DNA of 64,000 nucleotides from Arcobacter porcinus (lineage in GTDB: Bacteria; Campylobacterota; Campylobacteria; Campylobacterales; Arcobacteraceae). Position numbers and translations under genes: made by a program. The stretch is from positions 124,001 to 188,000 of the forward strand of contig NZ_CP036246.2 in NCBI RefSeq assembly GCF_004299785.2, written 5' to 3'. Positions 19,827 through 32,593 of this stretch are shown in pieces. A model generated the notes under the pieces. That model saw only the letters and a program-made list of their open reading frames with translations. It was not told the origin of the DNA and ran no database searches. Every line of letters starts with the position of its first letter. Position 1 is the stretch's first letter.

Positions 19827-20615
19827 ATGAAAAAAGTTTTAACAATAGCTGGAAGTGATTGTAGCGGTGGAGCTGGAATACAAGCAGATTTAAAAACATT
19901 TAGTGCTTTTGGAACATTTGGAATGAGTGTTATTACTTCAATTGTTGCTGAAAATACTTTTAGAGTTATTGAGATTCAAGATGCAAGAGTTGATATGGTA
20001 GAAAAACAGCTTATTGCTATTTTTGAAGATATTGTTCCAGATGCAGTTAAAATAGGAATGCTTCCAAGCAAAGAGATTATGAAATGTGTAGCAGATTTTT
20101 TAAGAAAAAATGATGCAAAAAATATAGTTATAGATCCAGTTATGTATGCAAAAAATGGATGTGCTTTGATGGATGTTGAGAATATTGATACTTTGATAAA
20201 AGAGGTTATTCCTTTAGCTTATGTTTTAACTCCAAATATTCCTGAAGCCCAAGAGATAGCAAAAATGAAAATAAACAATCAAGAAGATATGAAAAAAGCT
20301 GCTATAAAAATACACGAAATGGGTTGTAAAAATGTACTTGTAAAAGGTGGTCACTCAAATGAAGATGTGGCTTGTGATATTTTATATGATGGAAAAGAGT
20401 TTTATAAATTTTGTGTAGAGAAAATTGATACAAAAAATACTCACGGAACAGGTTGCACATATTCATCTGCAATTGCTTCAAATCTTGCTTTGGGTGAGAA
20501 AATAGAAGATACACTTAAAATATCGAAAGATTATATTACAAATGCTATAAAACACTCACTTGATATTGGAAAAGGACACGGACCTACAAATCATTTTTAT
20601 AAGTTTTTTAAATAA
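19827..20615 (+). CDS. thiD: HMP / HMP-phosphate kinase ThiD
   Basis: ThiD phosphorylates HMP phosphate to the pyrophosphate used by ThiE. The 262-residue ribokinase-fold protein has TIAGSDCSGGAGIQADLKTFSA at the N-terminus, VIDPVMYAKNG in the middle and the anion-hole motif NTHGTGCTYSSAIASNL at the C-terminus. It is a single-domain kinase, not fused to ThiE. It is the last gene of the riboswitch-controlled operon and converges with the accessory island 15 bases away. Confidence 0.96.
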   Translation: MKKVLTIAGSDCSGGAGIQADLKTFSAFGTFGMSVITSIVAENTFRVIEIQDARVDMVEKQLIAIFEDIVPDAVKIGMLPSKEIMKCVADFLRKNDAKNIVIDPVMYAKNGCALMDVENIDTLIKEVIPLAYVLTPNIPEAQEIAKMKINNQEDMKKAAIKIHEMGCKNVLVKGGHSNEDVACDILYDGKEFYKFCVEKIDTKNTHGTGCTYSSAIASNLALGEKIEDTLKISKDYITNAIKHSLDIGKGHGPTNHFYKFFK

Positions 20616-20630: not shown

Positions 20631-21752
20631 TTAAGACTCTTTGCTTTTAATAATTATCTTTTTGTATTTTAGAATATCAGTTAAAATACTATCACTAGCT
20701 ACTCCTAAAATCTTATCCCTAAGAGCAATTGCATCATATTTTGAAGCATTACTTCCGTGAACTACTTCGTTTCTGATATTTTGTAAAAAATTTATATAGT
20801 ATGGGAGAGTTTTCTTTATAAAGAAGCTTATATTTGATGTTTCAAAGCTATCTCTTATACTATTTTCTACAATATCTATTTTTAAAATAAATTTATATGT
20901 ACCAAGATTTGGTTTATTAGTCAAAATATTAGGCAGGGTATAATCTAATCCATTTACAGAGTATTTAATATTTGATAACTCTTTGCTATTATTTAATAAA
21001 ATTCCAAAAAGTTCTTTAATAAATAGATAAATCTCTTGCTCCATTGTTTTGCTATATTTGACTACAATGCTTGTAAAATCATAAGTTAAATCATCTTTGT
21101 TTTCTTGAAATTCAATCTCTGCTGAAATTATATTATTTATACTTTCTGGATGTATTGAAAAAATATAAGAAGAACCAAAACAAAAATCAATGAGATTTTG
21201 TTTGATATTTAGATATTTTTTTGATTTGAAAATATCAATATAGTATTTGAAATCTTCATCAAGATTTTCAAAGAATCTTTTGTCTTCTTTTTGATTTACG
21301 ATAAGTGGATAAACATAGTTGTTCCCATACACAGCATAAGTATGGTTTCCAAAATTTGTAGCCCTAAGATTTGCTAATACTTCATCTTTTGTCTTTTCAA
21401 AATCATTTCTAATAATCTCACAAATATCTTCTATTAGAAACCAAATTTCTACCTCAAGATTCTTTTCTTTATAGTATTTTGGAGCTAAGTCATACAAATT
21501 TTCATCTGTGATTTTTATAACTTTAGCTACATAAATACTAGAATAATCTGTTAAAAATAGTTGTAGATAGCTGTTATTGTTTATATTTTTATATATTTCT
21601 TCTAAATCATCTTGAAAACTATGTTCTATATTTTTTAGTTTTGATCTAACCTTTCCAAAAGCTACTTTCCCTGTGTCTAGTAAAACTTTTAAGTGTTGTT
21701 CTATCACATCTTCTTGATAGTAAGGATTATATAAAATTAGTAAGTTTTTCAT
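20631..21752 (-). CDS. HEPN-motif protein, distal gene of the island's second operon
   Basis: A 373-residue protein I cannot name. The last ~80 residues read like a HEPN domain: R327-N-E-V-V-H332 fits the Rx4-6H RNase motif, followed by GSNASKYDAIALRDKILG. The N-terminal ~250 residues are mixed alpha/beta with no motif I recognise. It lies 10 bases downstream of the 105-residue gene, and both are behind the element at 22125-22141. HEPN proteins are frequent toxins or effectors in defence systems. Here RNase activity is an inference from the motif alone. Confidence 0.6.
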   Translation of the reverse strand: MKNLLILYNPYYQEDVIEQHLKVLLDTGKVAFGKVRSKLKNIEHSFQDDLEEIYKNINNNSYLQLFLTDYSSIYVAKVIKITDENLYDLAPKYYKEKNLEVEIWFLIEDICEIIRNDFEKTKDEVLANLRATNFGNHTYAVYGNNYVYPLIVNQKEDKRFFENLDEDFKYYIDIFKSKKYLNIKQNLIDFCFGSSYIFSIHPESINNIISAEIEFQENKDDLTYDFTSIVVKYSKTMEQEIYLFIKELFGILLNNSKELSNIKYSVNGLDYTLPNILTNKPNLGTYKFILKIDIVENSIRDSFETSNISFFIKKTLPYYINFLQNIRNEVVHGSNASKYDAIALRDKILGVASDSILTDILKYKKIIIKSKES

Positions 21753-21762
21753 TTTAGTTTCC

Positions 21763-22080
21763 TTATATTCCTGCGGCTAAAATCTTTAAAATAATTTCAT
21801 TCTCTTTTAGAGCTTTATTCTCTTTTTTATCCATAAATATTAAAGCATACCTATTGAGTTTAAAAACAACATCTGTTATCTTATCAAAATCAAAATCATC
21901 ATGTGCTTCAACTTCAATTAGCATACTCTTTGCATTAGATAAGTATTTATAACTTAAAATGTTTTCTTCTATATCATCAATTTTCAATAAAATATTAATG
22001 CCTCGATACTCACCTTTAAAATTTAAAATCTTCTCATTTTCATCAAATTTTAAAGCCTTTATTCTATCACTATCTAACAT
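21763..22080 (-). CDS. 105-residue protein of unknown function, first gene of the HEPN operon
   Basis: A soluble, acidic 105-residue protein without recognised motifs. It has a strong ribosome site (AAAAAAGGATAAGAG) and its own promoter: a TATACT -10 at 22110-22115 with the island's repeated operator just upstream. Its close coupling to the HEPN gene suggests a partner, regulator or antitoxin. That is inference from position. Confidence 0.65.
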   Translation of the reverse strand: MLDSDRIKALKFDENEKILNFKGEYRGINILLKIDDIEENILSYKYLSNAKSMLIEVEAHDDFDFDKITDVVFKLNRYALIFMDKKENKALKENEIILKILAAGI

Positions 22081-22109: not shown

Positions 22110-22115
22110 AGTATA
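22110..22115 (-). promoter_or_regulatory. Extended -10 of the HEPN operon
   Basis: On the minus strand this reads TGC then TATACT, 29 bases before the ATG at 22080. The shared 17-base element lies 9 bases further upstream, covering the -35 position. Confidence 0.6.
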
Positions 22116-22124
22116 GCAAGTGAA

Positions 22125-22141
22125 TTTGACAGCTTGTGTCG
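22125..22141 (-). promoter_or_regulatory. Repeated operator-like element, copy 1
   Basis: The minus strand reads CGACACAAGCTGTCAAA and contains the inverted repeat GACA-5-TGTC. An identical 17-mer stands at 30738-30754. In both cases the element ends 9 bases before an extended -10 box. The island encodes a WYL-type repressor, which makes that protein the obvious candidate ligand. Confidence 0.7.
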
Positions 22142-22148
22142 TAGAGTT

Positions 22149-22352
22149 TTATTTATTTTTTTTAAAAAGTCTACCAAAAAAATATCCTATTAGCATTGAA
22201 ACCAAAGCCATAGTTCCCCAAACATAATTAATAATAAACTCACTCCAAACTACAAAAATAATAAATATTATTAATAAACTACTATACTTCTCTTTTGAGA
22301 ATATAGTAGTTAAGAAACCTATTATTATGAAAAATATGAACCAAATTTGCAT
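22149..22352 (-). CDS. Small multi-pass membrane protein (67 residues)
   Basis: An almost wholly hydrophobic 67-residue protein with two to three membrane segments (about residues 2-18, 25-45 and 47-62) and a basic C-terminal tail FGRLFKKNK. It lies 26 bases downstream of the short GTPase gene on the same strand, probably the last gene of the island's main operon. The function is unknown; a membrane partner for the GTPases is plausible. Confidence 0.6.
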   Translation of the reverse strand: MQIWFIFFIIIGFLTTIFSKEKYSSLLIIFIIFVVWSEFIINYVWGTMALVSMLIGYFFGRLFKKNK

Positions 22353-22378
22353 TTTTAATTATTTGTTATCTATAAACT

Positions 22379-23344
22379 TTATTTATAGACATGATCTTCA
22401 AGCTTTAAATAATTTTTTAAACTTTGTTCAATAGATTTATATCCTAAATAACTATGAAATTTGCTATCCCAATTTTTACCAAAACTATTTTTGAAAAAAT
22501 TTATAAATCCATCAATGTCATCTAAATGGTCAAAATTTAGGTTATTTTTATTTCTATAATATTCTATAAATTTAGAAGATACCGTAAAAACTTTTGGAGA
22601 TTTAAAACCATATTTTTTTGCACTATTTTTGATTTTATCAATAGCTATATTTTCGTAATAAAACCAATGTTTTTTTATATTTGCAAAATACTCCTCTTTT
22701 GAAGATGAACTTTTAATCTCTTCTATTTTTTTATTATCTTCAAAAGCTTTATCTATCTTATTTATGATAAAAAGAACTTCAAAATCTGGAGTTTTCTCTT
22801 TTCTTTGTTTTATTAATCCCCAAAGATTATTTTTATTTAATTCTAAATTTGCATCTATTTGTCCATAATCAAATAAATACAAAACCATATCTGCTTCATT
22901 TAAAATAATATTTTTTGTAGTATCACTATGTTTAAAAGCATGTTCATCTGTATTGTTTGGTCCAGGAGTATCTATAATTATAAAATTTGTATCAAACTTT
23001 TCACTATTTTGAAGTATATGAAAATCCCAATGCAAATCTATCTTTTTGACATTTTTATACTTTTCATCTAAAGTATCACTATCTTTTTGAGCATAAAACT
23101 TTATCTCTTTTTGAACTATATCTTTTGCTAACTCTACTGTTTTCTTACCATCTGTAAACTCTACTATTGCCATATCATTGTCAGGATTATCATCTGAATA
23201 GATATAAATAGGGCAATCTGTTGTCGCATGTGAATATGCAGGTAAAATACTATCTCCAAACAAAGCATTTATAAAAGTAGATTTCCCTGCACTCATATTT
23301 GCAACAACAGCAATTTTATATTGTTTATTTATATTATTTTTCAT
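22379..23344 (-). CDS. Dynamin-like GTPase, short paralogue
   Basis: A 321-residue GTPase of the bacterial dynamin-like family. The G1 loop ANMSAGKS is at residues 15-22, G3 DTPG at 125-128 and G4 NKID at 195-198. It is almost only a GTPase domain: the long helical stalk of its 700-residue neighbour is missing. The two share long identical stretches around G1 and the LPAY.HATTD segment, so they are paralogues. Its start overlaps the 94-residue membrane-protein gene by 4 bases. Unequal dynamin pairs are known in Leo/Eleos-type systems. Confidence 0.82.
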   Translation of the reverse strand: MKNNINKQYKIAVVANMSAGKSTFINALFGDSILPAYSHATTDCPIYIYSDDNPDNDMAIVEFTDGKKTVELAKDIVQKEIKFYAQKDSDTLDEKYKNVKKIDLHWDFHILQNSEKFDTNFIIIDTPGPNNTDEHAFKHSDTTKNIILNEADMVLYLFDYGQIDANLELNKNNLWGLIKQRKEKTPDFEVLFIINKIDKAFEDNKKIEEIKSSSSKEEYFANIKKHWFYYENIAIDKIKNSAKKYGFKSPKVFTVSSKFIEYYRNKNNLNFDHLDDIDGFINFFKNSFGKNWDSKFHSYLGYKSIEQSLKNYLKLEDHVYK

Positions 23345-23625
23345 CTTTTATTTTTTAGTGCTTCTTCAATCATCTTAATTAAATCTGGAAATTCTTTCAC
23401 TCTTCTATCTTTAGACATTGCTTCTAAAGTTTCCCAATCATTCTCAATCATTGCCTCTTCTATGATTTTTTTATCGCTCTTATATCTATCTTCTTTAGTT
23501 GATAAACTATCTGTAAATTCTCTTTTTGGTTTTTGTTTATCACTATTTTTATAAACTAAATAAGCAATTCCTGCTACTACTATAGCTCCACCTATTAATG
23601 CTACTGTTTCTATTGCTGGTGCCAT
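23341..23625 (-). CDS. Single-TM protein between the two dynamin-like genes
   Basis: A 94-residue protein with a glycine/alanine-rich membrane segment (VALIGGAIVVAGIAYLVYK, about residues 8-26) and a highly charged soluble tail. It is 4 bases downstream of the large GTPase gene and overlaps the small one by 4 bases, so the three are translationally linked. It could anchor a GTPase complex to the membrane. No named family is recognised. Confidence 0.7.
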   Translation of the reverse strand: MAPAIETVALIGGAIVVAGIAYLVYKNSDKQKPKREFTDSLSTKEDRYKSDKKIIEEAMIENDWETLEAMSKDRRVKEFPDLIKMIEEALKNKR

Positions 23626-23629
23626 TTTT

Positions 23630-25732
23630 TTACTCCTTTGTTAAATTATTAAAATCTTCTAGTTGTTTTTCTACAACTACTAACTCTTTTTCACTATTCT
23701 TTATATCATCTTGTAATTTAGATATCTCTTCTTGTTTATTTGATTTAAACTCTTCAAAAATTTTAAAGTTTATATCTTTTAAACTATTAATTGTTTTTTT
23801 ATAGTTATTTTTTTCTTTACTATAAAACTGTTTTATGCTTTCTTTCATACTATCTTCTATTGATTTTTTTAAATCTTTTGGGTTTATAGTGAATAGATGT
23901 TCTTCTTCCTGAACTAAAACTTCTATTGTATTACCCCAAGTCCAAGGTTTATACCAATCAGAATCGCTAAATGTTTCATATTCTGCTTCTTGATATTTAT
24001 AATCCAATACACTATTTGGAATAGATATATCAAAACTTAAAGTTGAATCAATATCTACTGTTTGCATCTCTATATTTTGAATATCTATATCTAAAGCATC
24101 TTGAAGCTCAGAATTTAATCTATCTTTTACTTTTCTAAATATTTTTGAAATATCTTCTTCATACTCTCTGAATCTCTTTCTTAAAACTGTTTTAACATCA
24201 AGATAGTTATTTTTATAATCTTCTAAAATTGATTTTATATAATCTTGCATAGCTTTAAAAACAAAATCTGTATCAATATGATTTTCTAACTCAATTTGTA
24301 TATCATTTAATAAGCTAATAGAATGATATTTGTTTTTTGCACTTTTTTGAGCTATTTTAGGTTCTCTACCATATGCTATTTCTTCTGCATAAGCTATTGC
24401 TTTTTTAGACATCTCATCAATTTTTGAAGTTAGTTCATCTTTTATTGCTGTATCAATCAAATCATTTATCTCTTCAATAGCTTTTTCACTTGATATTTTA
24501 AACTTATTATTCATATCTTTCTCAAGCTCTATGGCTTCTTTATTTAAAAAGTTTAAAGCTTTCTCTACATTTGCTGTAGCTTCTTCTTTTGGTTTACTTA
24601 ATGTTTGTATATTAGTTTGTAAACTACTAATTTCATCATTTTTTATAGTTAAAATATTATCAAGCGCAATTTTTAATATTTTATTTTTAACTTCTGTATT
24701 GATATAGTTATTTATATTATCTTCAAGATTTAAAATTCCAAGATATTTTATAAACTCTTCTTCCCAATTATTTTCAAATACTCTTTTAAAATGTTGTTTT
24801 TTGAAAAGATCCAAAAAATCTTCATCATCATAACCTTTTTTATCATTTCTTTCCAAAAGTTGATAATATGAAGATATAGGATAAACCTTTGGATTATCAA
24901 TTCCATGTTTTTTTGCTGCATCTACAATCTTATCTATAGCAATTTTTTCATGTTTAAACCAATTTTCTTTTTTTTGTTTTATGAAATTTTCTCTATCACT
25001 ATTATCCAAATCTTTAAAATTATCATTCATTGACATATCTATTTTATTGATTAAAAAATAGACTTCGAAATTCTTATCTTTTTCATATCTTGTTTTAATG
25101 GTATGCCATAAGCCCTGCTCATCGCTACTCAAGTTTGCATCAAGTTGTCCATAATCAAAAACAAAAAGAGCCATATCGACACTATTTAAAACACTTCTTG
25201 TTTGGTCCTTATGTTTTTGTTTATAACCATCTCCCGTACTATTTGGTCCAGGTGTATCTATAAATGTGATACTAAAATCTTCATTTGAAGATGTTTGAAG
25301 ATTTAAAAATGGATAGTATAAATCTATTTTTTCAACATTTTTATATTTATTGTCTTTACAATCTTCATCTTTTTGAGCATATTGTTTTATCTCTTTTTCC
25401 AAATCTTCAGTGATTGTAATATTTTTTCTTCCATCAGAAAAAAATATTTCTGCTTTTTTTTTTATATTTGGTTTTGAGTATATATACGTGGCACTATCTG
25501 TTGTAGCATGATTATATGCTGGTAATACTTCTTTTCCAAATAAAGCATTTATAAAAGTAGATTTTCCTGAGCTCATATTTGCAACAACTGCTATTTTATA
25601 CTCTTGTTTATCCAAGTTTTGTTTTACATCTTCAAGTTTTTTTGAAGATGTACCATTTTTATATTTAGAAAAATATTTTTCTAAATTATCAATTTTATTT
25701 TTAATTTCTGGTTTTGTTAAATTATTTTGCAT
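23630..25732 (-). CDS. Dynamin-like GTPase, large paralogue
   Basis: A 700-residue dynamin-family protein. An N-terminal helix (~residues 5-45) precedes the GTPase domain, with G1 ANMSSGKS at 51-58, G3 DTPG at 159-162 and G4 NKID at 229-232. A long helical region (~360-560) then reads as stalk or coiled coil, with a final coiled coil at ~640-700. Bacterial dynamins bind and remodel membranes and take part in phage resistance or membrane repair. The gene begins one base after the 101-residue gene stops and belongs to the main island operon. Confidence 0.85.
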   Translation of the reverse strand: MQNNLTKPEIKNKIDNLEKYFSKYKNGTSSKKLEDVKQNLDKQEYKIAVVANMSSGKSTFINALFGKEVLPAYNHATTDSATYIYSKPNIKKKAEIFFSDGRKNITITEDLEKEIKQYAQKDEDCKDNKYKNVEKIDLYYPFLNLQTSSNEDFSITFIDTPGPNSTGDGYKQKHKDQTRSVLNSVDMALFVFDYGQLDANLSSDEQGLWHTIKTRYEKDKNFEVYFLINKIDMSMNDNFKDLDNSDRENFIKQKKENWFKHEKIAIDKIVDAAKKHGIDNPKVYPISSYYQLLERNDKKGYDDEDFLDLFKKQHFKRVFENNWEEEFIKYLGILNLEDNINNYINTEVKNKILKIALDNILTIKNDEISSLQTNIQTLSKPKEEATANVEKALNFLNKEAIELEKDMNNKFKISSEKAIEEINDLIDTAIKDELTSKIDEMSKKAIAYAEEIAYGREPKIAQKSAKNKYHSISLLNDIQIELENHIDTDFVFKAMQDYIKSILEDYKNNYLDVKTVLRKRFREYEEDISKIFRKVKDRLNSELQDALDIDIQNIEMQTVDIDSTLSFDISIPNSVLDYKYQEAEYETFSDSDWYKPWTWGNTIEVLVQEEEHLFTINPKDLKKSIEDSMKESIKQFYSKEKNNYKKTINSLKDINFKIFEEFKSNKQEEISKLQDDIKNSEKELVVVEKQLEDFNNLTKE

Positions 25733-25733
25733 T

Positions 25734-26039
25734 TTAATTTTCCTTATCTTCTAAAAATTGTTTATAATAAAAATCTAATTTCATTTCAATATCATTAGTA
25801 TCTACTTTAATAACTTTATCATAGTATATCTCTAAAAATTTTATGGCATTTTCTGTAAGTAATTTTGAATTTAATGATATTGAAGAATCTATAATATTTA
25901 AATCAATTATTTCTTTTCCATCTTTACTAAGTAAATTATGAGTATTTAAATAATAAAATACTTTTTTAAATTTTTGAATAACTTCATCCTTGTTTTCTCC
26001 AGCATCTATATGCCAAGTTGCTTTATCAAATATTTTCAT
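25734..26039 (-). CDS. 101-residue protein following the nuclease-like gene
   Basis: A small acidic protein (IFDKATWHIDAGENKDEVIQ near the start) with no function I can name. It begins one base downstream of the PD-(D/E)XK-like gene, the position an immunity or chaperone protein would take. The protein looks soluble and helical. Confidence 0.6.
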   Translation of the reverse strand: MKIFDKATWHIDAGENKDEVIQKFKKVFYYLNTHNLLSKDGKEIIDLNIIDSSISLNSKLLTENAIKFLEIYYDKVIKVDTNDIEMKLDFYYKQFLEDKEN

Positions 26040-26040
26040 G

Positions 26041-26580
26041 TTAATCCTTTCTTACTATTACTGTTTTTACATTATTTGGTATTTCAACTAAATTTCCTTC
26101 AGAATCTTTAATGAAATTTCCACCATTTTCTCTAATCCTATCCTCTTTAGCTGACTGGGCAGTCTTATCCGCTGTTTTTGAAGTTACTTCAATAGATTTA
26201 ACCACTTTACCATCTTTAATAACTACAAAATCAATTCTTCTAGCTTCACCCGTTATAGGATCTTTTACAATATTGCCATCTTTATCTCTTAAATAGATTT
26301 CACTTTCAATTTTATATCCATCCTCCTGTGGATATTCTTCCTTTAATTCTTGATAAACTAATTTTTCTCTTTCTAATCCATCTTCCTTATTTTTTATAAT
26401 AGTTTTCTCTTTAACTTCTGAATCTATTCCTTCGATTTCTGTTTTATCTCCACTTATACCAACTTCTTGAGATTTATTTAACAACTCATTTGGTGACATT
26501 TTTTTATTTATTTCATCAAATGATGGTTTGAAATTTTCTAATTTATTTTTAGCAACTTCACTTATCATTGTTTGATACAT
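26041..26580 (-). CDS. PD-(D/E)XK-like nuclease-domain protein
   Basis: A 179-residue protein. The first ~65 residues are charged linker. The rest looks like a PD-(D/E)XK fold: GLEREKLVYQELKEE helix, RRIDFVVIKDG with D117, then SIEVTSKTADKTAQSAK with E131 and K135. The same pattern occurs in nuclease tips of polymorphic toxins. The spacing EVTSK departs from strict ExK, so activity is uncertain. It is wedged without gaps between the HerA ATPase gene and the 101-residue gene, which suggests a nuclease working with the ATPase. Confidence 0.55.
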   Translation of the reverse strand: MYQTMISEVAKNKLENFKPSFDEINKKMSPNELLNKSQEVGISGDKTEIEGIDSEVKEKTIIKNKEDGLEREKLVYQELKEEYPQEDGYKIESEIYLRDKDGNIVKDPITGEARRIDFVVIKDGKVVKSIEVTSKTADKTAQSAKEDRIRENGGNFIKDSEGNLVEIPNNVKTVIVRKD

Positions 26581-29500
26581 TTAAAACCCCTCCTTTATAA
26601 TATTTGTAAAATCTATCTCTTTTTTACCACTTCTTATAGCTCCTAAAGAGTGTCTTAATTGTGGGTTTGTAGTTTTAAATATTTTTTGTGAGATTTTATC
26701 TAATCTATCATTTAGAGATATATCTTCTTTCATTGTTGTATTTACAAACTCATAAATCTCCTCATCTGAAGTGATATTCTCTAAAAAAAGTAGAGTGAAA
26801 TCTATTTCAAAATCTTTATAATTTTTCATAGATGGATAAATTGTTTTTAAACTTAAATGTTCAAAACATTTTTTAAAATTATCTACTCTATTTTCTAAAT
26901 TATTATCTTTTTTTTCAATTATCGTTAGTATTAAAGTTGTAAAACCTTTGATTGAATCTATATAGCAATCAATATTTCTATAAAACTGCATATTTGATAA
27001 GTAGTTTAGTTTATTCCAAAGTTTATTTAATATATAGATATACTCTTTATCATCATCTCTTTTCCCTATATCTTTTTTTAGATTTTCCCAATTTTCCAAA
27101 ATATTTTTTGAGTCAAATAAAATAGAGTTTATAAACTCTACAAGTTTAAGTTTTAATCTATCAAAATCTAAACTATTTATTTCAGGTCTATTTTCTACAT
27201 AGAACCATTTTTCAAACAAAAACTCATATTTATATTCTTCATTTTTTTCTATAAATCTTTTATAGAAATTCTTTATTTCATCATCTGATATTTTTTCTTC
27301 TTTAAACTCATCTATTTTTACCATAAATGCTTGATGAATATCTCTATTATGAACTATTGCTTCACCAGATTTTAGCTCTGCAATATCAAGAATTTGTTCA
27401 TCACTTAGATTTATAGCTTTCCCAACTATTTCTCTATCTTCATAATCCATAGTTCTATGAATTATTTTTATATTTGTATTTTTTATAACATCTCTATGAA
27501 GCTTTGAGGCTATTTGGTCTGCTATGATTATACCTTCCCCATATGCTCTAATTTCAGCTAAAATATTTGTAAATGTTTCTATAGATTTTGCTCTTGAACT
27601 AGCCTCTTCACCACTTTTATCCAAAGATATATTTGGCAATAATCTATGAGCTTCTTCTATAACTGTAATATGATTTAAACTTTTACTTTGTCCTTTTTCT
27701 TCTTTGTAGCTATAAAGTTTATTTAGTATAAGTCCCATTAAAAAAGCTTTTTCTTCATCATCTACTATATTTGATAATTCTATAATAGTTGGTGTTTCAA
27801 AGAGAAGTTCTGAATCAAAACTATGTCTTGAGTTAAAAATTTTGCCTTTTACACCCAATGTAAGATTATTTATTCTTGTTTTTAAAGCCGCTTTTATATT
27901 GTTTTGTAAATCTTGATAATATCCTGCATTTTCAACAACTTGGATAACTTCTTCTTTTAAATCTTCCATATTTGGGAAAAGTAAACTCTTTCTATCATAA
28001 TTCGCATCTTTTGAGTCTGTATAATATGGATGATCTTCTGTTTCAAAACTCCAACCTTTTTTTTCATAAACTTTATGAATAGCTTCTTCTAAGATATATG
28101 GCATTGGTCCATACATTGGAAAAGCTGAACAAAAAGTAGTTTTTAGCATATCTACATGTTTTGTTAAAGTTACACTATTGTTTTTTCTACTATGCTCAAA
28201 AATAAATGGGTTAAATCTAAAAATATCTCCTTTTGCTCCTGGTCTAAAGATTTGTAAATTTGGTATTTTTTTAAGTAGATGTTTATACTCTGATTTTGCA
28301 GGTTCTATAACCAAAAATGGAATTTTATTTTCTAAATTTGTATTATTTTGAAGATTTTCTAAAATACCTTTTATAGTATTTGATTTTCCACCACCTGTAA
28401 TTCCTGATACAAAAAGATGTGAATTTAAACCATCTAAAGATAGTTTAAATTTTTGATTTGTAGATTTTTTCTTATTTAATACATTTCCAATTTCAATAGA
28501 GTTATATTTATCTATTTTAGCTTGAGTAAGTCCAAAACTTGATACTTTTGAAACACTTATTCCATCTATGTCATTGTTTGGAAGAGCTGAAAGTATAGAT
28601 AACTCTTCACTATTTATAGCACTTGAAAATCCTGAAAAGGAGCTGTGAATTGGATGTTTAAAGCTCTTATCAAAATATAGCATTGGTAAATTTTCTATTT
28701 TGATATTTTTATTATCATTTAGATTTTCACTAAATCTTATAGCTTCAAAGTATGTTTCATCTCCACTATAAACACTTTTTAAAGTGTGTTCAAGTTCACT
28801 TAAAGTTGTTTCATCATTTGATTGAATATATAGTGAAGTATTCCACATTCCGTGGTTTAAACCTTTTTGAAATCTCTCTATATACTTATCTATTAGATTT
28901 TCACAATATTCAGCAGATTTATTTATCTCATCAAATGTAATTCCAAGAGTTTTTGTTTTATTCTCATTTGTACCAAAACTTTCATTTGTACTATTAGTTC
29001 TTGATTCTGAATGGCTTTGGCTAGTACTTTCTGATTTTGTTTTTGAAAAAAATTGTGAACCTATAAAAGTAATTCCTCCACCAATAGCAGCACCAATAGC
29101 TGTCCCTGGTCCTGGAATAATACTACCAATAGAAGCACCAATAACAGCACCTCCAACAAAAGAACCAACATTTCCGATTTTACTACCTAATGTTTTATCG
29201 CTTATACTTTCAGAAGAAGAATAACTATCACTTTGTGTTTTACTATTACTTGAACCTTTTGTATGAGAAGTTCCTTGTGAATTACTTTCTTGAATATTTT
29301 TACTCTGTTTAACAAATCTATGAAGTTCACTTCCTAAAGTTTGATAATTTGAAATAATCTCTTTTATAGTGTTATTATCATAGCTTTCTGCAACTACTAC
29401 TATTCGGAAATTCTTATTTTGCATAGGAAATAGTATTTTTTCTAAAGATTGATTATATTTTTTATCTGAATCTCTTTTTAAAGATGGTATTCCAAGCATT

Positions 29501-29916
29501 GCTTTTGAATACTTACTATCTTCAAATTTTGGTTTATCAAAATTTATTTCTGAACCTGAATAAATACCTTGAAAAGTATTATTTAAAAACTCTTGAGAAT
29601 CTTTTAGGGTTCCTAAATACAAATCTATCCCATTATTATTACTTTCTATAACATAAACAAATTTTTTAGTTTTTGATGATATTGCACCAAGGATTTGTTG
29701 AAAATCTATAAGATTTATATCCGTTTCATCTTTGTTCCTATCATAAGAGATATGATTTATTTTTATAAAATCTATAGCTTTGTTCTCTTCTATATCAATA
29801 TTTTGAGTTGAAATATTATAATTTTCATAATAATTTCTTTCTAAGAAGTTTTGTATAACTTTATCAAGTTTTACTTCCTGAATCACATCTGTACTTTTGT
29901 AAATATCTAATTGCAT
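26581..29916 (-). CDS. HerA/DUF87-family ATPase with internal Ser-rich and glycine-zipper insert
   Basis: A 1111-residue ATPase of the HerA/FtsK class. Order of parts: unique N-terminal domain (1-200), Ser-rich stretch (~205-240), hydrophobic glycine-zipper (~245-290: VGGAVIGASIGSIIPGPG), a second Ser-rich stretch (to ~315), then the ATPase core with Walker A GITGGGKS (505-512), Walker B VIEEAHRL (~752-759) and the C-terminal HerA region (GEGIIIADQ; HRTMDYEDREIVGKA). I start at ATG 29916, preceded by AAGGAT. The GTG at 29964 would overlap the small ORF upstream. HerA ATPases pump or translocate DNA and often pair with nucleases in defence systems. Confidence 0.83.
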   Translation of the reverse strand: MQLDIYKSTDVIQEVKLDKVIQNFLERNYYENYNISTQNIDIEENKAIDFIKINHISYDRNKDETDINLIDFQQILGAISSKTKKFVYVIESNNNGIDLYLGTLKDSQEFLNNTFQGIYSGSEINFDKPKFEDSKYSKAMLGIPSLKRDSDKKYNQSLEKILFPMQNKNFRIVVVAESYDNNTIKEIISNYQTLGSELHRFVKQSKNIQESNSQGTSHTKGSSNSKTQSDSYSSSESISDKTLGSKIGNVGSFVGGAVIGASIGSIIPGPGTAIGAAIGGGITFIGSQFFSKTKSESTSQSHSESRTNSTNESFGTNENKTKTLGITFDEINKSAEYCENLIDKYIERFQKGLNHGMWNTSLYIQSNDETTLSELEHTLKSVYSGDETYFEAIRFSENLNDNKNIKIENLPMLYFDKSFKHPIHSSFSGFSSAINSEELSILSALPNNDIDGISVSKVSSFGLTQAKIDKYNSIEIGNVLNKKKSTNQKFKLSLDGLNSHLFVSGITGGGKSNTIKGILENLQNNTNLENKIPFLVIEPAKSEYKHLLKKIPNLQIFRPGAKGDIFRFNPFIFEHSRKNNSVTLTKHVDMLKTTFCSAFPMYGPMPYILEEAIHKVYEKKGWSFETEDHPYYTDSKDANYDRKSLLFPNMEDLKEEVIQVVENAGYYQDLQNNIKAALKTRINNLTLGVKGKIFNSRHSFDSELLFETPTIIELSNIVDDEEKAFLMGLILNKLYSYKEEKGQSKSLNHITVIEEAHRLLPNISLDKSGEEASSRAKSIETFTNILAEIRAYGEGIIIADQIASKLHRDVIKNTNIKIIHRTMDYEDREIVGKAINLSDEQILDIAELKSGEAIVHNRDIHQAFMVKIDEFKEEKISDDEIKNFYKRFIEKNEEYKYEFLFEKWFYVENRPEINSLDFDRLKLKLVEFINSILFDSKNILENWENLKKDIGKRDDDKEYIYILNKLWNKLNYLSNMQFYRNIDCYIDSIKGFTTLILTIIEKKDNNLENRVDNFKKCFEHLSLKTIYPSMKNYKDFEIDFTLLFLENITSDEEIYEFVNTTMKEDISLNDRLDKISQKIFKTTNPQLRHSLGAIRSGKKEIDFTNIIKEGF

Positions 29917-29920
29917 TATT

Positions 29921-30043
29921 TTAATCCTTCTTTCTATTACACAGCAAATTACACAAGAAGCCACTTTTTATGATTTTAGATAGAAATTTATAGCCAAAAT
30001 AAAAAATAATTAGCCAAAAAATTAAATTTAGTAAGAACCCCAT
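29921..30043 (-). CDS. 40-residue single-TM peptide upstream of HerA gene
   Basis: An open frame of 40 codons with an ATG at 30043, an AAGGAA ribosome site 5-6 bases upstream, and a TAA four bases before the HerA ATG. The product opens MGFLLNLIFWLIIFYFGYKF, a classic membrane helix, followed by a basic tail with a CNLLCN pair. The placement exactly fills the gap between two island genes with operon-like spacing, so I think it is real. No family is recognised. Confidence 0.55.
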   Translation of the reverse strand: MGFLLNLIFWLIIFYFGYKFLSKIIKSGFLCNLLCNRKKD

Positions 30044-30135
30044 AATATTTCCTTATGTAAAACATTTTATTATAATCAAAACAAATATAAAGATACTCTA
30101 AAAAGTAATAATTTAGAGTATAAAAATTTATATTA

Positions 30136-30690
30136 TTACTTTTCTAAACATATATTCTCTATCTCTTTTGCCAAAGAGTAAGCTTCATTTATCAAAGCTC
30201 GTTTTTTATCACTAAACTTAGTAAAATCTAGATTTTCATCTTTATCATTTTGTAAAGCTTTTAAAATTGAGTTTAAAACTTCATTATATGATTCTAGCTT
30301 CTCTGTATAATCATATATTATAGTTTCATCTTGATTACTATTTTCATCTATTATCTTTGTCTCAAATATTTTCATATCTTTAATATCAAATATATCAAGA
30401 TTTGTATTCTCTAAAGAGTTAAAATAGTTTGTAAATGAGAGAAAAGAGTCTTTATATACACTTTTTTTTGTATCATAAAACTTTACAAAATCAATCATAT
30501 CATCATCTAAACTATCTAAATAATTATCAAGTGCTACAAGCTTTTCATCTAGCCACTCATCAACTTTTGCAATCTTATCTTCAAGAGCTTGATGAATTTC
30601 ATCTTCATTTTCATCATAAATCTTTTTTGTAACAACTCCTGCAACTGTGCCTATTGCTCCACCAATTATAAACGGTAATACTGGTAACAT
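30136..30690 (-). CDS. Glycine-zipper membrane-anchored helical protein
   Basis: A 184-residue protein. An N-terminal zipper/membrane segment (FIIGGAIGTVAGVVTKKIY, residues ~7-25) is followed by a long acidic helical body. It is the first gene of the main island operon, with its own promoter (-10 at 30723-30728) under the repeated operator. The N-terminal segment resembles the zipper inside the HerA protein, so a shared membrane or assembly role is possible. No named family is recognised. Confidence 0.65.
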   Translation of the reverse strand: MLPVLPFIIGGAIGTVAGVVTKKIYDENEDEIHQALEDKIAKVDEWLDEKLVALDNYLDSLDDDMIDFVKFYDTKKSVYKDSFLSFTNYFNSLENTNLDIFDIKDMKIFETKIIDENSNQDETIIYDYTEKLESYNEVLNSILKALQNDKDENLDFTKFSDKKRALINEAYSLAKEIENICLEK

Positions 30691-30722
30691 CCTAAACTCC
30701 TTGTTTTAAATTTTATAAAAGA

Positions 30723-30728
30723 AGTTTA
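30723..30728 (-). promoter_or_regulatory. Extended -10 of the main island operon
   Basis: On the minus strand this reads TGC then TAAACT, 32 bases before the ATG at 30690. The spacing to the operator-like element (9 bases) is identical to that of the HEPN operon promoter. Confidence 0.6.
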
Positions 30729-30737
30729 GCATTAGCT

Positions 30738-30754
30738 TTTGACAGCTTGTGTCG
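30738..30754 (-). promoter_or_regulatory. Repeated operator-like element, copy 2
   Basis: Identical 17-mer to 22125-22141 (minus strand CGACACAAGCTGTCAAA, inverted repeat GACA-5-TGTC). It stands between the WYL regulator gene and the glycine-zipper gene. It overlaps the -35 position of the promoter, where a bound repressor would block RNA polymerase. Confidence 0.7.
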
Positions 30755-30761
30755 GAAATTT

Positions 30762-31637
30762 TTATATATTTGGTTTTTTTAGATAATCTTTCAAAATATC
30801 TTCAAGCTTTTTTTGAAGTTCAAGAGGTTTTATTATTTGAATATAAGGCAACCAATACTTTACAATATTTAATATCTCATCATCAAAAGCAATATTTGTA
30901 CTTACAATAAAGTACTCATCTTTGTTTTCTACCATTTTCATATTTTGTAATACTTTTTTTCTAAGAAAATACTCTTTTGCACTATTATCTATTTTTAAAT
31001 GAACTTCTTTTAAATCTTTTGATAAGAAATTAACAGACCCCTCTTCAATTTTTTCTAAAACTTTTTCATCTAGCTTAAACTTCTCACTATAAACCATAAG
31101 ATTTTTTATTTTGGAAAAACTATATGATTTCATATTATTACTTTCTAAAGCACATAAATACCATATTCCATTTGTATTGATTAGTTTATAAGGACTTAGT
31201 TCTCTTTTTTTATCATTGTAAATAAAAGAGATTTTATTTTGATTAAGAATTGCAGAACTTAAATTTTCAAATAAATCTTTTTTTGATACAATATCTTCAA
31301 ATCCACTATCATTTATAATATAGGCTTTTTTCATCTTTTCTTCGATTATATTTTTTAGGAACTCTTGACTTAAAGATGGAAAAAGAGATTTAAGACCACT
31401 AAATATTGCAAAGTTTTTTATATCGGTGAAATTTAATTTTCCAACTTCATTTTCACTCAAAAAATATCTTTTATTCTCTTTTTTTAAATTAAACCAAGAG
31501 AAACGAATAAGATCTCTTTGTATTGTTCTTTCTGTTACTCCAAACTCTTCTGCTAATTCTTCAACACTTAATCTTTCTCCTTGATTTAGCTTATAAAGAA
31601 TTATTGATAGTCGTGTTGCCAATTTATCATGTTGCAA
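30762..31637 (-). CDS. HTH + WYL-domain transcriptional regulator
   Basis: A 291-residue regulator. An N-terminal winged helix-turn-helix (residues ~8-60: LSVEELAEEFGVTERTIQRDLIRF) is followed by a WYL domain, visible as NKISFIYNDKKRELSPYKLINTNGIWYLCAL, and a C-terminal WCX-like region. WYL proteins act as ligand-sensing repressors of phage-defence islands (BrxR and CapW types). It is the most upstream gene of the island and reads in the same direction. The two repeated operator-like elements are its probable targets. Its own upstream region lacks the element. Confidence 0.85.
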   Translation of the reverse strand: MQHDKLATRLSIILYKLNQGERLSVEELAEEFGVTERTIQRDLIRFSWFNLKKENKRYFLSENEVGKLNFTDIKNFAIFSGLKSLFPSLSQEFLKNIIEEKMKKAYIINDSGFEDIVSKKDLFENLSSAILNQNKISFIYNDKKRELSPYKLINTNGIWYLCALESNNMKSYSFSKIKNLMVYSEKFKLDEKVLEKIEEGSVNFLSKDLKEVHLKIDNSAKEYFLRKKVLQNMKMVENKDEYFIVSTNIAFDDEILNIVKYWLPYIQIIKPLELQKKLEDILKDYLKKPNI

Positions 31638-31720: not shown

Positions 31721-31750
31721 TAAAAAAAGGAGCAACAATGTCGCTCCTTT
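31721..31750 (-). terminator. Terminator of the rplM-rpsI operon
   Basis: On the minus strand AAAGGAGC, a short loop and GCTCCTTT form a strong hairpin followed by a run of Ts, 29 bases after rpsI. It also insulates the island from the ribosomal operon. Confidence 0.8.
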
Positions 31751-31778: not shown

Positions 31779-32168
31779 TTATCTTTTTGAGAATTGAGAA
31801 GATTTTCTCGCTTTTTTTCTTCCGTATTTTTTTCTTTCAACAGATCTTGCATCTCTTGTTAATAAACCATATGGTTTTAAGATAGTTCTGAATTGCTCAT
31901 CATAAGCAACTAAAGCTCTACTAATTCCATGTCTAGCAGCATCAGCTTGAGCAGAATATCCACCACCTAATGTTTTTACTATTACATTTACAGAAGTTTC
32001 TTGTTTAGCTACTTGTAATGGTTGCATAACTCTTTTTTTGATTGACTCATGACCACCAAGCCATTGATCTAAAGATTGTCCATTTACAGTTAATTGTCCA
32101 TTTCCATTCTCTAACCAAACTTTAGCTATTGCTGTTTTTCTTCTTCCAGTTGCATATACTTTTGCCAT
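31779..32168 (-). CDS. rpsI: Ribosomal protein S9
   Basis: The 129-residue small-subunit protein begins [18 protein letters not shown] and ends with the invariant basic tail [19 protein letters not shown], whose final Lys-Arg contacts tRNA in the P site. It follows rplM by 5 bases in the standard L13-S9 operon. Confidence 0.98.
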
Positions 32169-32173
32169 TACTA

Positions 32174-32593
32174 TTATCCTTTAATTTGAGCAGTATGAGG
32201 GTGTTCACTTCCTGCATATACTTTTAATTTTTTTAACATAGCTTTACCAAGAGTAGTTTTTGGAAGCATACCTCTAGTAGCTAATTTGTACAGTTTTTCT
32301 GGGTTTTTTTCAATCATATCAGACATTTTGTGAGTTTTTGTACTTCCAAAATAACCTGAGTGAGTATAGTAATTTTTATCTTCTAATTTATTACCAGAAA
32401 ATTTAGCTTTACTTGCATTGATTATTACAACATAATCTCCACAATCAACATTTGGAGTATAGCAAGGTTTATTTTTACCTCTTAAAATTGTTGCAACTTC
32501 AGTTATGATTCTTCCGAATATTTTACCTTCTGCATCAACTACAATCCAATCTCTTTGAATTTCATTGGCTTTTGCCATTTGAGTAAATTTCAT
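32174..32593 (-). CDS. rplM: Ribosomal protein L13
   Basis: A 139-residue large-subunit protein with [30 protein letters not shown] and the central [31 protein letters not shown] block. It is an early assembly protein of the 50S subunit. The GGGAG ribosome site fits the ATG at 32593; an internal ATG five codons later is possible. It is the first gene of the rplM-rpsI operon. Confidence 0.98.

Follow-up and report, generated by a model that had tools for sequence, protein, structure and literature searches.

Two operons that lie 8.6 kb apart in the window (the whole 64,000-nucleotide stretch of DNA analysed here) are headed by the same 17-bp element, and one copy of this element starts 7 bp past the stop codon of a gene for a WYL-domain regulator. 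The locus raises the question of whether this regulator reads the element and, if so, whether it represses both operons, as an earlier note on this DNA had claimed, or switches them on. We consider it likely that the protein is a DriD-like activator, probably triggered by single-stranded DNA (ssDNA), that co-induces the two operons in a genome without detectable LexA.

The island and its two element-bearing promoters

The genes and promoter elements of the island are as follows.

30762..31637, minus strand: WYL regulator, 291 aa, TTG start, with HTH, WYL and weak WCX domains
30738..30754, minus strand: element copy 1 (core GACACAAGCTGTC at 30741-30753), in the promoter of the HerA/dynamin operon
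30723..30728, minus strand: -10 hexamer TAAACT with TGC extension, 12 nt past TGTC
30136..30690, minus strand: small glycine-zipper-like protein (MLPVLPFIIGG...), first gene past copy 1
26581..29964, minus strand: HerA-like (DUF87) ATPase, 1127 aa
26041..26580, minus strand: weak NERD-like nuclease-related protein (E 5e-4, just under the cut-off)
25734..26039, minus strand: 101-aa protein, function not assigned, between the NERD-like gene and dynamin 1
23630..25732, minus strand: dynamin-like GTPase 1, 700 aa, GTPase part CrfC/RdcA-like
23341..23625, minus strand: 94-aa protein between the dynamin pair, with a homolog between the dynamins of locus L103
22379..23344, minus strand: dynamin-like GTPase 2, 321 aa
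22149..22352, minus strand: ORF for a 67-aa membrane protein, which stops 7 bp short of copy 2
22125..22141, minus strand: element copy 2 (core 22128-22140), in the promoter of the p105/HEPN operon
22110..22115, minus strand: -10 hexamer TATACT with TGC extension, 12 nt past TGTC
21763..22080, minus strand: 105-aa protein (p105), first gene past copy 2, with weak PADLOC matches to PDC-M37A/AbiTi
20631..21752, minus strand: HEPN-motif protein (RNEVVH, R-X4-H) of the HP0729 family (NF041917, 3e-156)

A single WYL gene was identified among the island proteins scanned, the other WYL genes of the genome being far away, and no CBASS or BREX genes were found among the ten island proteins scanned. The HEPN-type motif R-N-X3-H of the HP0729-family protein is kept in six homologs. 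This family has a name and no assigned function, and it travels with this WYL in many Campylobacterota. In the nearest relative, an AbiEii-type toxin gene occurs just before the HEPN homolog (L037:17699-18382). Ribosomal protein genes seem to border the island: a frame ending at 31779 (31779-32593) looks like S9, with a terminator beside it at 31726-31750, and rpsI may be one insertion end. A thiD-like gene at 19827-20615 marks the neighbourhood of the other end of the island.

The 17-mer CGACACAAGCTGTCAAA was recovered by exact match at both places given in the earlier note, and each copy holds the inverted repeat GACA-N5-TGTC that had been described. With up to three mismatches allowed, these are the only two occurrences in the window, where 0.06 would be expected. 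The whole 2.02-Mb genome contains exactly two exact copies, and its next best places (four of them) have 3 mismatches. A chance repeat is thus ruled out, and the many scattered copies that the earlier note had named as telling against a shared regulon are absent. The 12-nt spacers and the flanks differ between the copies, which identifies the 17-mer as a conserved element and rules out a recently duplicated promoter. The core has AGCTGTC where the family consensus has ACCTGTC, and is thus one base off.

The element spans -38 to -22 in both promoters and so covers the -35 position, as had been proposed. The register from -35 to -30 reads CACAAG, and thus there is no -35 hexamer. Nine bases, ending in TGC, separate the element from the -10 hexamers TATACT and TAAACT; the distance of nine bases previously given to the extended -10 holds for the hexamer, whereas the TG is 6 bases away. 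ATG start codons follow 29 and 32 nt past the respective hexamers, close to the 30 or so bases estimated before. A general scan for -35 and -10 elements was uninformative in the AT-rich DNA of the window. The region upstream of the WYL gene has no such site, again as noted earlier; one 2-mismatch GACATTGTTGCTC was localized within the terminator hairpin upstream of this gene.

Pairing of the WYL protein with the element

The predicted regulator has an N-terminal HTH followed by WYL, the arrangement of a WYL transcription factor, and the motif IWYL is conserved in its family. Pfam matches to WYL (1.1e-8) and HTH_11 (4e-7) are above the cut-off, and the match to WCX (5e-4) is just below it. A WYL search in 104 genomes of the family yielded 18 genomes with close orthologs. 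Around these orthologs and two truncated copies we identified 19 cores (up to 2 mismatches of GACACAACCTGTC), and all 19 have [TC]ANNNT exactly 12 nt downstream, although the search included no promoter condition.

A profile search of public genomes extended the sample to 80 WYL loci, found in Campylobacterota, in beta-, gamma- and delta-proteobacteria and in a handful of MAGs with other labels. Next to orthologs of the window WYL in Campylobacterota and these proteobacterial classes, the core GACAYNNCCTGTC turns up again, and the family WYL orthologs with the core nearby are 36-68% identical. Exact GACA-N5-TGTC occurs 190 times in the 80 loci (about two counts per site, as the pattern is palindromic), whereas eight control palindromes gave 8-72. 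For TAnnnT, offset 12 stands out, with 58 occurrences versus about 4 elsewhere. Column counts give the consensus AACGACAYNaCCTGTC-N12-TAtacT, and the family consensus core is ACGACAYNACCTGTC.

The exact element was found in 30 of 397 genomes of the class and its reversed control in one. WYL genes (E <= 1e-40) are encoded in 29 of the 30 element-bearing genomes versus 103 of the 397 overall (p ~9e-18), and 37 of 44 sites in the class genomes are within 15 kb of WYL. The core is absent from ten loci of more distant WYL paralogs. No recognisable site was found in the DNA examined near 11 of 45 Campylobacterota orthologs. The tree of 45 orthologs has a two-way split with 99/99 support, and a half-site variant, GACA-N5-TTGC (TTGC for TGTC), is confined to the smaller clade: there it accounts for five sites against one TGTC, whereas the larger clade has 26 TGTC and no TTGC (p 3e-5, uncorrected for relatedness). 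Inspection of the alignment by eye found no recognition-helix residues that explain TGTC versus TTGC. Because regulator and element change together, their pairing is well supported by sequence comparison, and it is very probably the protein encoded at 30762-31637 that reads the element.

The position of the element relative to its regulator differs between groups. In Campylobacterota it is found past the WYL gene or heading an operon that ends with WYL, and in many proteobacteria it precedes the WYL gene itself by about 45 bp. Homologs or look-alikes of the small protein encoded at 30136..30690 follow the element in many Campylobacterota. The frequency of such glycine-zipper proteins past the sites is what would be expected if the 17-mer were a promoter part carried along by gene duplication or island shuffling and not read by WYL at all. 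We regard this explanation, already disfavoured, as very improbable: the element also precedes unrelated genes (the HEPN unit, WYL genes, the ATPase of L132, small membrane proteins) across unrelated spacers, it tracks WYL from genome to genome, and its half-site variant goes with the WYL clade.

The proposal that the HEPN and HerA/dynamin units belong to one regulon gains support from co-location, co-occurrence and the clade-tracking half-site variant. Homologs of the HEPN protein, 39-74% identical, adjoin this WYL in many genomes (about ten other loci), which is further support for this link, and dynamins or HerA are near WYL in still other loci.

Several related loci have features of their own. 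Element-headed operons in L118, L120, L106 and L113 encode small proteins of the GGVALAATGYG type, often together with a HEPN protein; their GTPases vary (dynamin, IIGP-like, DLP_helical) and are swapped between relatives. In genome G118, five exact elements on contig C22 (~121788-151399) lie no more than 30 kb from the WYL gene; with six elements in total, the regulon is unusually large. A different WYL gene, in L063 (G049:C1 ~49116), has GACAAAATATGTC-N12-TATAAT in its own promoter, which suggests that a further WYL clade shares the layout.

Promoter geometry and the sign of regulation

Exactly at +12, NANNNT is present for 83 of the 84 distinct cores, compared with a mean of 6 and a maximum of 14 at other offsets, and the rule holds for 47 of 48 after removal of similar spacers. 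The distance is kept and the spacer letters are not, as one would expect of a bound protein in contact with RNA polymerase. Good -35 sequences are rarer than at random (at least four matches in 2 of 84 cores versus about 14%), although a clear -35 is often missing from promoters of Campylobacterota in any case. Both window promoters, through GACACAAGCTGTC, have the GAC-N7-GTC of DriD-type targets in the -35 region at the constant distance from the -10 that such targets have. The element at -38 to -22 is not on or past the -10, where the operators of CapW and BrxR are located.

These observations bear on the earlier claim that the WYL protein represses both operons, of which one part stands (the protein is the likely reader of both promoters) and the other, repression, gains no support. 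An exact 12-nt spacing with the -35 replaced, as for DriD and PafBC, does not support repression. A CapW/BrxR-type repressor that blocks sigma at the -35 and is released on phage infection or damage could act at this position. The element overlaps the polymerase footprint, an extended -10 could function without an activator, and there are WYL repressors that govern CBASS and BREX within defence islands (PMC9122588, PMC9122601). However, the sites of CapW overlap the -10 and those of BrxR are past it, and a repressor would need neither a 12-nt spacing kept exactly in phyla whose spacers differ nor the loss of a -35. The proteobacterial site ~45 bp before the WYL gene is often seen with autorepressors, but the gene for DriD is likewise preceded by a site (PMC12340889), and the WYL promoter of Campylobacterota is usually without one. 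Repression is thus unlikely, and this reading is probably wrong.

The regulator could also work as a dual switch, with the promoter closed without ligand and activated with ligand from the same site. MerR-type regulators follow this logic and act in the -35 region, where the element is located, and DriD can bind DNA without polymerase. However, ssDNA stimulates DNA binding or complex formation by DriD and PafBC, so that firm binding of the site by the apo form would not be expected. We find a dual switch less probable still than simple repression.

Structural comparison leans towards a DriD-like activator without deciding the matter. An AlphaFold2 model of the WYL protein (mean pLDDT 77, pTM 0.53) matched DriD first in Foldseek (3e-12), followed by PafBC (9e-10), BrxR (6e-8) and CapW (7e-8). 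The VIA Z values of all four are about 9-12, with activators and repressors overlapping, and TM-scores are low. Searching PDB sequences with an alignment profile recovered, among WYL proteins, PafBC and DriD only; phmmer with the single WYL sequence found nothing relevant there. The protein is 17% identical to DriD. Its conserved basic residues K143, K151 and K170 are compatible with ssDNA sensing.

Under activation, a WYL homodimer, suggested by the two half-sites of the element, would bind GACA-N5-TGTC at -37 to -25, flanking the position of sigma domain 4. The target promoters have an extended -10 and no -35, and the bound protein would recruit or stabilise RNA polymerase, as DriD does. The WYL domain would probably sense ssDNA or some other nucleic acid that damage or infection produces. 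Exactly two operons would be switched on in this genome, the glycine-zipper/HerA/dynamin operon and the p105/HEPN operon. No LexA DNA-binding domain was detected in the genome by a search that was positive in 10 of 14 control genomes, and the WYL protein is a candidate for the role of sensing damage or infection in bacteria that lack LexA.

A wider reading, which we offer tentatively and hold to be somewhat less probable than its opposite, is that WYL activators have spread horizontally across several classes with one promoter code, ACGACAYNACCTGTC-N12-TAnnnT, and that they provide LexA-less bacteria with an ssDNA-induced, RecA/LexA-independent defence by dynamin and HEPN proteins. Such a code would be readable from sequence alone and would predict the genes of each regulon, which are two operons here.

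Comparison with known WYL and dynamin systems

The DriD-type layout is already known. In the open-access texts searched, the family, its cross-phylum code and its dynamin and HEPN targets appear undescribed, and nothing relevant was found on WYL together with dynamin or on WYL in Campylobacter or Helicobacter.

DriD, an activator of Caulobacter crescentus, is also an HTH-WYL-WCX protein with a pseudo-palindrome, CGACA-N5-TGTCG, over a non-canonical -35. Its site (oligo ATACGACAGTAACTGTCGTAT) keeps a constant distance from the -10, and sigma4 sits at the centre of this site (PMC12340889). Our own alignment of the didA and CCNA_03891 promoters to the DriD consensus places CAAGGT and CAATCT at +12, giving the same 12 nt from GTC to the -10; the bapE promoter does not fit this rule with the simple DriD consensus (7/14). 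Unlike the WYL protein of this island, DriD controls scattered chromosomal damage genes (didA, bapE, recJ, dnaG) and not a neighbouring island.

The mycobacterial activator PafBC, which acts by sigma adaptation, shares the WYL and WCX domains and a -26 element that replaces the -35. Its consensus tTGTCRgtg-N8-TannnT is equivalent to TGTC-N12-TAnnnT (PMC5656591). PafBC is a heterodimer in which only PafB contacts a half-site, whereas here there is one gene and two half-sites, and the fused or adjacent pair of WYL genes typical of PafBC is absent from the island. SiwR of Mycobacterium smegmatis, likened by layout, is a homodimeric WYL activator encoded beside its targets, with an imperfect palindrome between -35 and -10, and it needs its -26 region (PMC10693628); its targets, in contrast, are DinB-like.

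CapW and BrxR share with the present case a WYL regulator in a defence-type island and inverted-repeat sites, but the CapW site is over the -10 (PMC9122588) and that of BrxR downstream of it (PMC9122601), and both rank lower by structure. These characterised WYL regulators of defence islands are repressors, whereas the window protein looks like an activator.

LeoABC and CrfC(RdcA)-YjcZ(RdcB) do not join their GTPases with a HerA-like ATPase, an HP0729-family HEPN protein or a WYL switch. The likeness is in the paired dynamin GTPases of a controlled operon, and homologs of YjcZ are paired with dynamins in the related WYL loci L113 and L166. Through the promoter code, a HEPN protein of the HP0729 family would share a single response with dynamin pairs.
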